56,575 nucleotides of DNA from Desulfobulbaceae bacterium (GTDB lineage Bacteria > Desulfobacterota > Desulfobulbia > Desulfobulbales > Desulfobulbaceae): the NCBI GenBank assembly GCA_015484845.1, contig WFUT01000031.1, forward strand, positions 1 through 56,575. The letters are read 5' to 3'. Position numbers and translations under genes: made by a program. The notes under the pieces are model-generated. The model saw nothing but the letters and a program-made list of their open reading frames with translations. It ran no database searches and was not told the DNA's origin. Shown here one piece after another: positions 29,987 through 53,420 of this stretch (positions are counted from its first letter, which is position 1; each line of letters starts with the position of its first letter).

Positions 29987-30095
29987 GGCTCAGGTAGATG
30001 CCGTTATCCCGTATCTTCCTGTTGGCACAGGGATCCCTGCCCTGCGGGCCGCTCCTGCAGTGTCTTGTACGGGTCTTTTCTGTCTCTGGAAAAAT

Positions 30096-30463
30096 CGGGG
30101 CGGGCTGTAAGCCGAATTCTGTCTCCGCCTGCGCGGACCATGATCATTTGACTGGGATGCCGGTCGCCCGGCACCTCGTGCAACCTACCCGGAAGCATCA
30201 GGCGGGCCGCCTTCAGGCGCTTCCCTATTTGGTCTTGCACCCGGTGGGGTTTACCCTGCCTTCCGTGTCACCACGGAAGCGGTGAGCTCTTACCTCGCCT
30301 TTTCACCCTTGCCTGTGGACGCTTGACGCGTCCCATCGGCGGTGTGTTTTCTGTGGCACTTTCCCCCGGTTACCCGGGGTTCGCGTTACGAACCACCGTG
30401 CCCTGCGGTGTTCGGACTTTCCTCTCCGGCCTTGCTGGCCGGAGCGATCATGCACCCGCCCCG
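30096..30463 (-). ncRNA. rnpB: RNase P RNA, class A
   Basis: About 368 nt on the minus strand. It has the conserved GAGGAAAGTCCG near the 5' side, GGTAAGAGCTCACCGC, GTAAACCCCACC, GCAAGACCAAATAGG and, at the 3' side, ACAGAATTCGGCTTACAG. The outer P1 stem pairs CGGGGCGGG (30463-30455) with CCCGCCCCG near 30096-30104. A short T-run follows the P1 stem, giving a natural terminator. It forms the catalytic part of the enzyme that trims tRNA 5' ends. A TATACT box on the minus strand near 30530 may be its promoter, which would imply a processed 5' extension. Confidence 0.93.
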
Positions 30464-51213: not shown

Positions 51214-51366
51214 ACCTGAATCCCGCCCTTCGGGATTGGCAATCTTACAAAATCTGCTTCGTTATCAAGGGCTTGAAGTATTCTTGTACGTCGGCGCCCT
51301 TGATGCCTCGCATCTCCGGCAAAATTGCCAATTGCAGGATTTAGGTACCAATTGCAGGATGCAGGT
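51214..51366. repeat. Internally deleted copy C of the palindromic repeat, plus a partial end
   Basis: The left end ACCTGAATCC (from 51214) is joined directly to CGCCCTTCGGGATTGGCAAT; the whole first hairpin is missing. The nested GGCAAT.../AAAATTGCC and ATCAAGGGC/GCCCTTGAT hairpins and the perfect right end TGCAGGATTTAGGT (51333-51346) remain. A second copy of the last bases (CAATTGCAGGATGCAGGT) follows to 51366. It lies 42 bases before tilS, with no gene between 50967 and 51408. Confidence 0.8.
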
Positions 51367-51408
51367 GAAAACCTGTGGCTGCGTATCCCGGGACGAGGTA
51401 CGATCCAT

Positions 51409-52452
51409 ATGCACCCGCTCGAGTTGACCATCCGCAGGATCGTGGCTGAAAACAACCTTCCCCTCACCGGAAGGGACGTGGTGGTCGCTGTCTCCGGTGG
51501 CCCCGACTCCATGGCCCTGCTCCACATCCTGGCCTCGCTGCGTAACCTCCTGGACATCGGCCTGCACGTTGTCTGCGTTGACCATGGCCTGCGACCGGGC
51601 GAGACAGGGGCGGAGATCGCCCTGGTCCGGGAGGCTGCCAGGACGCTCGGCCTTGCCTGCGAGGTGGTGCAGGTCGACACCGCCGCCTGGGTGCGCCGGC
51701 ACAGGATCTCCCTGGAGCACGGTGCCCGGGAACTGCGTTACCGTGCCCTCCACCAGGTGGCTGACCGGCTGGAGCGGGCAGTGATCTGTGTCGGCCACAG
51801 CGCCGATGACCAGGCCGAGGAGATCCTGATCCGGCTCATCCGCGGTAGCGGTCGCAGCGGCCTGTCGGGCATGCGGCCGGTGAGCGGCAGGGTGGTACGC
51901 CCCCTGCTCGGCGTGGGCCGGGAGCGCATCCTGGCCTATCTCCGCGACCAGGGCATCGCTTTCTGCCTGGACCCCAGCAACCGGGATCCGCGTTTTCTGC
52001 GCAACCGGGTCCGGCATGAACTCCTGCCCCTGCTGGAGGAGAGGTTTGATCCCGGCATCAGGAAGGCCCTGCTCAAGACCGCAGCCAGCCTGGCAGAGGA
52101 CGAGGCCCTGCTCGACTCCATGACCACCGCGGCATGGGAGCGGCTGGTACGTTGGCGCAACGGCCGGGAGGAGCCAGGGGGGGAACCCGGCTGTCTCCTT
52201 GAGCGGGACGGCTTCCGGGAGCTGCCGCCAGCCCTGCAGCGCCGGCTGGTGGAGCGGATTCTCTGGCGGCTCGGCAGCCGTGCCCGCTACGCGCATATTG
52301 TCCGGGTCGTGGATGCAGCGGTCCGCGGTACACCGGGAAGGGAGCTGCACCTGGGCCGTGGTCTGCGGGTGGGGCTGCAACGGGACGTGCTCGAGTTCAG
52401 CTATCCCGTGGGCAGGGTCCCCTGGCGGGGCCGGCTGGCCGATGGAGCATAG
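51409..52452 (+). CDS. tilS: tRNA(Ile)-lysidine synthase
   Basis: 347 residues from ATG 51409 (GAGGT upstream at long spacing). N-type ATP pyrophosphatase loop AVSGGPDSMALL, CVDHGLRPGETGAE, GHSADDQAEEILIRLIRGSG and DPSNRDPRFLRNRVRHELLP. It changes C34 of tRNA-Ile (CAU) to lysidine with ATP. The C-terminal part has the substrate-binding domain but is shorter than in E. coli. The repeat copy C lies just upstream. Confidence 0.94.
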   Translation: MHPLELTIRRIVAENNLPLTGRDVVVAVSGGPDSMALLHILASLRNLLDIGLHVVCVDHGLRPGETGAEIALVREAARTLGLACEVVQVDTAAWVRRHRISLEHGARELRYRALHQVADRLERAVICVGHSADDQAEEILIRLIRGSGRSGLSGMRPVSGRVVRPLLGVGRERILAYLRDQGIAFCLDPSNRDPRFLRNRVRHELLPLLEERFDPGIRKALLKTAASLAEDEALLDSMTTAAWERLVRWRNGREEPGGEPGCLLERDGFRELPPALQRRLVERILWRLGSRARYAHIVRVVDAAVRGTPGRELHLGRGLRVGLQRDVLEFSYPVGRVPWRGRLADGA

Positions 52453-52504
52453 CGGTGCCGGTCCCGGGGTACGTATTTTAAGATATACGGAAGGAGGAAG
52501 GAAC

Positions 52505-53335
52505 ATGGAGCAGGGGCAATTTGTTGATCTGTCCGCGGCCGAGCTGCGCAGGTACATGGCGGAACATCATGAAGAGGCATACCTCCTGGTCGATGTCCGC
52601 CAGGAAAAGGAATATGCCCGCGCCCACATTCCCGGTGCCAGGTTGCTGCCCCTGGCCGAACTGCCGGCCCGGTTGGCCGAGTTGCCGGCAGACCGGGATA
52701 TCGTTTTTTACTGACGCTCCGGCAAGCGGTCGCGGGCGGCGGCCATTTTCTACAGCAGTGTTCCGGAGGGCTCCCGCGGGATCTACAACCTCAAGGGAGG
52801 CATCCTGGCCTGGGACGGCCGGACCCTCGAGGGCGTGCCGGCGCTCGCTGTCTTTGATCTCTCCGGTGACCCGGCCGATGTCCTGTACCGGGCCATGGAC
52901 CTGGAGCGGGGAGCGCAGCGCTGGTACGAGGCCGTGCTGGCGCGCCACCCGGGGGCCCCGTTTGCCCCGGCCGTGCGCCTGCTGGCCAGGGCCGAGGAGG
53001 AGCATGCCCGCCTGGTGTACCGCTACTGGCGGCGGGAGGCCGGGCAGGCGGCGTCGTTTGCCGAGGTCTATGCTTCCCTGGCCGGCGCCATTGTCGAGGG
53101 CGGCATGGATGTGGCTGCCATGCTCGCCCGGCTCGAGGAGACGGCCGAGGACAGCTGTATCGAGATCGTTGAGATGTCACTGGCCATCGAGCTGGCGGCC
53201 TATGATCTGTACCGGGGAATGGCCCATCGTTTCCAGGGGCAGGGCATGGAGGAACCATTCCTGGTGATCGCCCAGGCCGAGAAGGAACATATGCGGCTTG
53301 CCAGCGAGAGCCTGCAGCTCTGCGAACACTCCTGA
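52505..53335 (+). CDS. Selenocysteine-containing rhodanese fused to a rubrerythrin-like di-iron domain (UGA at 52712-52714)
   Basis: 276 residues when TGA 52712-52714 is read as selenocysteine (residue 70). The ATG follows a strong GGAAGGAGGAAGG. Rhodanese part 1-115: LLVDVRQEKEYARAHIPGA, then IVFY-U70-RSGKRSRAAA, where U70 occupies the catalytic-cysteine slot of CRSGxRS loops, then NLKGGILAWDG. Ferritin-like part about 120-272: E134, E164-x-x-H167, E229 and E259-x-x-H262, a full di-iron set as in rubrerythrin, but no rubredoxin. Both halves are in the same frame, and residues after the TGA continue the rhodanese fold, so this is not a broken gene. Likely sulfur- or selenium-transfer joined to peroxide or O2 detoxification. 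SelD is encoded 30 kb away. Confidence 0.85.
52715..52745 (+). promoter_or_regulatory. Candidate SECIS element of the rhodanese selenoprotein
   Basis: A GC-rich stem (CC-G-CG..GC against GC..GC-GG) is capped by a GGTC loop at 52728-52731, 14-17 bases after the UGA. E. coli fdhF has a GGUCU-type loop at a similar distance. Internal mismatches exist; pairing was judged by eye. Confidence 0.4.
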
Positions 53336-53381: not shown

Positions 53382-53420
53382 GTCCCTCCTGTGGCAAAAT
53401 ATCACAGGAGGGACATTTTC
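53382..53420 (+). terminator. Hairpin terminator after the rhodanese gene
   Basis: GTCCCTCCTGTG (53382-53393) and CACAGGAGGGAC (53403-53414) pair perfectly over 12 bp, with a nine-base AT-rich loop and a short ATTTT after it. It separates the selenoprotein gene from the chemoreceptor gene. Confidence 0.7.

Follow-up and report, generated by a model that had tools for sequence, protein, structure and literature searches.

We report a gene of a Desulfobulbaceae bacterium that very probably encodes a real selenoprotein (we put the probability at about 0.96 on the comparative evidence), in which a rhodanese domain with UGA-encoded selenocysteine (Sec) at its catalytic position is joined to a rubrerythrin-like di-iron domain. 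The recoding of UGA, the domain fusion and the conservation of the putative iron ligands are each supported by comparison among homologues, and the fusion is not a one-off: 70 of the phylum's 297 genomes searched carry it. Rhodaneses carrying Sec have already been catalogued; the two-domain family was not found in the open-licence literature searched.

Gene architecture and the in-frame UGA codon

The gene lies on the forward strand of the analysed stretch of 56,575 nucleotides (hereafter, the window), where the open reading frame begins with ATG at position 52505 and runs for 276 residues, in a single frame, to a TGA at 53333-53335. Frame, congeners and alignment together identify 52505-53335 as the predicted coding sequence of a rhodanese/rubrerythrin-like selenoprotein. 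Only one in-frame UGA interrupts it, at codon 70 (52712-52714, +), and both frame and alignment place the predicted Sec at the catalytic position of the rhodanese domain. A likely ribosome-binding site, AGGAGG, can be read at 52492-52497 (+), and the preceding gene on the same strand (51325-52452), which we take from its sequence to be TilS, ends 52 bases ahead of the ATG. Past the gene, a 13-bp hairpin followed by ATTTTC (53382-53414, +; folding z -4.4; absent from the pattern-scan listing) forms a likely terminator, and the transcript probably ends at this strong hairpin and its T-rich tail. The next gene, presumably a chemoreceptor to judge from its sequence, has a counterpart at this place in both other genomes of the genus (L157, L158). 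Elsewhere in the window, a class A RNase P RNA occupies 30092-30463 (-) with a score of 305.9 bits.

The rhodanese assignment is taken from Pfam rather than from the structure model: Rhodanese (PF00581) matches residues 21-104 (52565-52816, +) with 71.2 bits against a cut-off of 22.2, and the active-site loop reads URSGKRS. Rubrerythrin (PF02915) matches the same protein with 31.1 bits (cut-off 22.8), its best stretch spanning residues 220-268 and 51 of the 137 profile positions. The initial annotation had proposed an in-frame TGA at codon 70 in the place of the rhodanese active-site Cys, and its coordinates, frame and codon are all correct; the continuation in the same frame into a rubrerythrin-like di-iron domain, which it had also proposed, agrees with the second Pfam match.

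Homologues were assembled into an alignment of 113 rows, of which 73 (70 places from 96 related genomes and three contig-search loci) came from the first searches and 40 from a search of the phylum. Three places were dropped on extraction, two of them partial (G072:C193, G089:C130) and one with TAG and TAA inside (G087:C180), and the rows of L073 and L089 were trimmed at a presumed terminal stop. The phylum search recovered 71 near-full-length fusion places, spread over 70 of the 297 genomes; three further places (G363, G287, G100) are partial and stand outside this count. The 40 rows added to the alignment (L117 to L156) comprise all 23 new TGA-flagged places and 17 others. A single TGA was flagged in 26 of the 71 places, and it is the catalytic codon in 25 of these (the catalytic codon of L117 is TGC). 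Three of 14 relatives in the contig search were full length as well, and their records bear the titles Desulfocapsa, Desulfobulbaceae and Desulfobacterales. In another phylum, that of a genome found by way of an Accumulibacter record, 11 of 299 genomes gave a match at E 1e-20, none extending past the rhodanese part and its edge; five genomes of other records matched in the rhodanese part only, and the plasmid search returned two partial matches.

The position of the rhodanese nucleophile, occupied by UGA in the window, is either Cys or UGA in every homologue (62 Cys and 51 UGA, with no other residue in the column), and no UGA occurs elsewhere in the 113 aligned proteins. Such an alternation among rhodanese-di-iron fusions is what the initial annotation had suggested looking for. 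Shortly after the UGA, residues G73, S76 and G99 are invariant across the alignment. The search of 96 related genomes returned two congeners with one TGA each, encoding proteins 86% and 76% identical to that of the window, together with many further copies with or without TGA; a sequencing slip at the TGA is very unlikely, since three genomes of the genus, including that of the window, share it.

The initial annotation had also made its reading depend on the presence of selA, selB and selC, and all three are found in the window's genome above family cut-offs (selA, 636.5 bits; selB, 386.9; tRNA-Sec, 73.2). A selA match (TIGR00474) was obtained in 26 of the 29 UGA-bearing genomes of the first set. 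Among the relatives, 86 of 96 have selA, so loss of Sec does not by itself account for the Cys forms. The three UGA-bearing genomes with no selA match (G029, G043, G095) all score above cut-off for selB, as do G043 and G095 for tRNA-Sec; tRNA-Sec above cut-off was not found in G029 (74% complete) nor in the congener G002 (79% complete). One of these genomes, G095 (L100, L109, L114), is assembled in two contigs and rated 100% complete; it has a UGA copy and, at 73.9 and 375 bits respectively, tRNA-Sec and selB, with no TIGR00474 match. Its selA has possibly diverged or been replaced, or has fallen into an assembly gap.

A genome-wide change of code, under which UGA would be read as Trp or another residue, has nothing in its favour besides the open frame. 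The gene itself terminates with TGA, the catalytic column holds Cys and never Trp among the homologues, and the Sec machinery is present; we reject this reading on these grounds and consider it scarcely credible.

Downstream hairpin, selection and Sec/Cys exchange

A SECIS-like hairpin with a 6-bp stem (GGTCGC/GCGGCC) and a 5-nt loop (GGGCG) can be formed 13 nt past the UGA, at 52728-52744 (+), its assignment deriving from a stem count over the family. The initial annotation had pointed to 52700-52760 as the place to look for a SECIS element. The hairpin lies in that interval and tracks UGA across the family; the window's copy by itself folds no better than shuffled sequences (z 0.09). A thermodynamic folding test with synonymous-codon shuffles over the 51 nt from the UGA gave a weak contrast between classes (mean z of -0.45 and -0.81 for UGA copies of the near and far clades defined below, 0.03 and -0.28 for the corresponding Cys copies), and a count of stems at a fixed position was adopted because of this. 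With the stem defined as at least five uninterrupted pairs at a fixed position, a definition set after viewing the alignments and applied alike to both classes, and with identical stretches counted once (L042 equals L008 in sequence), the hairpin is found in 48 of the 51 distinct copies with UGA and in 5 of the 60 with Cys (Fisher p 6.5e-22). In the fresh set L117 to L156, the stem is present in 21 of 22 UGA copies and in 1 of 18 Cys copies. No similar contrast between UGA and Cys copies appeared at the 17 offsets used as a control, all of them at later positions, where the highest UGA count (16/51 versus 15/60) fell on an offset overlapping the hairpin.

Three of the 51 UGA copies lack an uninterrupted 5-bp stem, and two of these exceptions (L027, L028) show, as read by eye, a single mismatch in an otherwise paired stem. 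Codon usage within the stem follows the same division in the near clade, where all 13 UGA copies use TCG for the serine of the 5' arm versus 3 of 16 Cys copies (L029, L034, L044). When eight independent Sec/Cys pairs on supported branches of the quick tree were compared, a median of six were concordant with the hairpin, none ran opposite and two showed no difference (median p 0.03, range 0.016-0.22). Five Cys copies retain the hairpin (L034, L082, L087, L104, L148) and are possibly relics of a recent change from Sec to Cys.

The homologues fall into two fully supported clades, a near clade that contains the window's protein (13 UGA and 16 Cys rows) and a far clade (16 UGA and 28 Cys rows). By parsimony, a careful tree of 69 rows requires seven Sec/Cys changes and a quick tree of 111 rows, built with the hairpin columns left out, requires 17, after exclusion of four and two partial rows, respectively; read in this way, Sec and Cys have been exchanged repeatedly in the family. 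Both clades are represented together in four genomes (G003, G015, G090, G095), where the near copy is always Cys and the far copy always UGA. Among the three congeners, Ka/Ks lies between 0.15 and 0.20 downstream of the UGA versus 0.08 to 0.17 upstream, values which indicate purifying selection on the part beyond the UGA.

These observations bear on the reading of UGA as a true stop, by which the locus would yield a 69-residue rhodanese fragment and, by re-initiation at GTG 52835, a separate di-iron protein, or else would be a decaying gene. An open frame of 166 residues from that GTG to 53335 does exist, as such a reading would need. Set against it are the strict alternation of Cys and UGA over 113 homologues, a hairpin that tracks UGA, purifying selection on both sides of the codon and the invariant G73, S76 and G99 beyond it; we therefore reject a true stop with re-initiation, and deem this whole class of explanations highly improbable.

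The di-iron domain and its place among known systems

Residues 119-276 (52859-53332, +) constitute, on the evidence of the structure model and of fold and profile matches, a rubrerythrin-like four-helix di-iron domain. The model predicts long helices at residues 123-147, 154-179, 214-242 and 249-275, which carry in turn the E, ExxH, E and ExxH of a di-iron site. The initial annotation had called this set complete, and so it proves: the putative iron ligands are E134 (52904-52906, +; conserved in 112 of 113 rows), E164xxH167 (52994-53005, +; E164 in 111 of 112 rows, H167 in 112 of 112), E229 (53189-53191, +; 112 of 112) and E259xxH262 (53279-53290, +; 112 of 112 each). To these the alignment adds E198 (53096-53098, +), an extra Glu of an E-G-G motif conserved in 112 of 112 rows, which precedes the third long helix and faces a Glu in the alignment to TM1526 (1vjx). 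This extra Glu stands 31 residues before E229; the additional Glu of rubrerythrin lies on helix 3, at a distance of three residues.

Confidence in the model of the whole protein is middling (mean pLDDT 72.4, with residues 87-116 below 50) because it was built from four sequences; within the di-iron domain, block confidence reaches 90-94 for the first pair of long helices and drops to 71-86 beyond them. Structure comparison ranks PA4880 first among solved folds (Z 16.4, rmsd 2.6, 138 residues aligned), and nigerythrin (1yuz) aligns almost as well (Z 16.2, rmsd 2.1, 137 residues). The fold matches include a broad ferritin-like crowd, with Z still at 14.4 at rank 50, and matches of Z 14-16 to so many ferritin-like chains do not single out rubrerythrin; a Foldseek search with the model gave no match at E 0.001. 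Profile matches of the domain comprise P. furiosus 2fzf, TM1526 (1vjx) and symerythrin, and PF02915 is matched by all 33 family members scanned at E 0.01. The domain thus resembles rubrerythrin, nigerythrin and symerythrin (PF02915) in being a four-helix bundle with E, ExxH, E, ExxH. The protein differs from classical rubrerythrin in having no rubredoxin domain (no Cys4 domain in Pfam matches up to E 1) and, in its stead, an N-terminal rhodanese with Sec or Cys.

If the same selenoprotein housed a ferroxidase or iron store, its rhodanese would supply sulfur for the assembly or repair of Fe-S clusters. Bacterioferritin and Dps-like proteins are indeed among the structural neighbours at Z 14-16, and EncB, a family of encapsulin cargo proteins, matches weakly (E 0.023). 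The Glu-rich ligands with their extra invariant Glu, and the Pfam match of 33 out of 33 members, place the domain nearer to rubrerythrin, and no isc or suf gene occurs among the annotated neighbours (19 neighbour proteins scanned); we regard an iron-storing role as unlikely.

Fusions of a rhodanese with a non-haem iron domain have a precedent in what we take to be the persulfide dioxygenase-rhodanese fusion BpPRF (PDB 5ve3), whose rhodanese part is matched by the window's protein. By analogy, the di-iron site of the selenoprotein might use O2 to oxidise the sulfur of persulfides to sulfite or thiosulfate, a function with which the flavoprotein neighbours seen in the far clade would also fit. 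The iron domain here, however, has a four-helix di-iron fold, whereas persulfide dioxygenases have a metallo-beta-lactamase fold, and BpPRF presumably differs further in domain order and in having no Sec. The three named full-length relatives are moreover records of sulfur bacteria, in which O2 would be scarce, and this alternative seems to us unlikelier still than iron storage.

Among catalogued selenoproteins, predicted Sec rhodanese-like proteins of forms 2 and 4, with the motif UxxG, appear in tables of a review (PMC13188914), and Sec rhodaneses are also tabulated, with no UxxG label in those tables, in PMC9312934. The window's protein shares with the UxxG proteins of PMC13188914, as there tabulated, both PF00581 and Sec, its own motif being U-R-S-G. 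In the far-clade UGA copies inspected, the Gly of UxxG is found at the same place. The UxxG rhodanese probably goes back to a 2007 paper on the selenoproteome of the Olavius symbiont. Unlike the family described here, the catalogued entries come with no mention of a di-iron partner, the words 'ferritin' and 'rubrerythrin' having 0 occurrences in PMC13188914 and PMC9312934; some of the Sec rhodaneses that PMC13188914 catalogues may nonetheless belong to this family. Two further Sec proteins also have a rhodanese part. TsoB (NF045694), listed as a rhodanese/DsbD fusion-like selenoprotein with motif UxxxxU, is likewise a fusion with a rhodanese-like domain but differs in partner domain and motif, and its model scores the window's protein at 23.3 bits (cut-off 805). 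The rhodanese-related (seleno)protein LYCAU (NF041203) is also a Sec rhodanese but has a CxU motif (27.6 bits for the window's protein, cut-off 115). No report of a rhodanese-rubrerythrin-like fusion as a selenoprotein was found in the open-licence literature searched, and a description elsewhere is possible.

Proposed mechanism, gene neighbours and significance

In rhodaneses the nucleophile serves as a carrier of sulfane sulfur; peroxide reduction at rubrerythrin-type sites draws its electrons from a rubredoxin, itself fed by a flavoprotein. We propose that SelB and tRNA-Sec would decode codon 70 as Sec, guided by the hairpin just downstream, to give a 276-residue protein in which a rhodanese domain with Sec as its catalytic nucleophile is joined to the rubrerythrin-like di-iron domain. 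Sulfide or persulfide carriers would then supply the Sec with sulfane sulfur, or else with reducing equivalents, to form a seleno-persulfide, which would pass to the di-iron site and there serve to reduce peroxide or O2. The protein would in effect be a sulfur-fed peroxidase, with the rhodanese in place of the rubredoxin domain of classical rubrerythrin. We hold the relay from Sec persulfide to a di-iron peroxide or O2 site to be plausible at somewhat less than even odds; the selenoprotein identity and this mechanism, taken together loosely, come out on the favourable side of even.

Gene neighbours of the relatives hint at sulfur redox chemistry. Neighbourhoods of the near clade were compared over 23 loci of up to 11.6 kb each, with domains assigned by Pfam on one representative of each kind. 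A TilS-like gene lies within the stretch in 9 of the 23, at 100 bases or less only in the window and L176, while 10 loci have a divergent DUF4405 membrane protein and 12 a histidine kinase. A gene that reads as SelB-like by its sequence stands on the opposite strand, 29-4282 bases off, at seven loci (L159, L163 to L168), six of which are Cys carriers. At four loci, all of them Cys carriers, a gene with two DsrC domains lies on the same strand 205-918 bases away (L164 6715-7416, with relatives in L165-L167).

The far clade was surveyed over 20 loci of up to 8.8 kb each, and 10 of these have beside them, on the same strand, a stand-alone pyridine nucleotide-disulfide oxidoreductase, a flavoprotein that we presume to be akin to NDH-2 and SQR types. 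It is separated from the fusion gene by 15-73 bases in nine of the 10 cases and by 383 in one, and lies downstream in eight. For the two flavoproteins scanned, the nearest model is TIGR03169, which describes the flavoprotein domain N-terminal to SelD, with scores (256.9 and 258.2 bits) below its cut-off of 310. At E 1e-30 the flavoprotein was detected in 5 of the 12 genomes asked, the same model also matching 4 of 14 control genomes, and it was not found in the window's genome at that threshold. An AhpC/TSA-type gene is present within three of the 20 far-clade stretches (two scanned), in one of them 124 bases upstream of the target gene. Beside the window's own gene there is neither the flavoprotein, nor the double DsrC gene, nor any other suggestive neighbour. 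These neighbourhoods would agree with a coupling of sulfur transfer to peroxide or O2 chemistry, and prove nothing.

Extended to the phylum, our proposal would describe a widespread family of selenoenzymes in which a Sec persulfide directly powers a di-iron peroxide or O2 reductase, with sulfane sulfur as electron donor in oxygen defence; the flavoprotein would be a dedicated partner for one clade, and DsrC-like proteins would be partners to part of the other. This broader version we advance as tentative. With UGA taken for a stop, annotation would cut short 51 of the 113 genes examined, and the family is thus probably under-recorded. With repeated Sec/Cys switches on one tree, and a hairpin that accompanies Sec and is mostly missing with Cys, the family offers an unusually clear natural experiment. 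Anaerobic sulfur bacteria lead a sulfide-rich life and meet oxygen at interfaces; if the proposed mechanism is true, sulfur and oxygen stress would in them be linked by direct chemistry, through one protein that pairs a di-iron centre with a sulfur carrier based on selenium.
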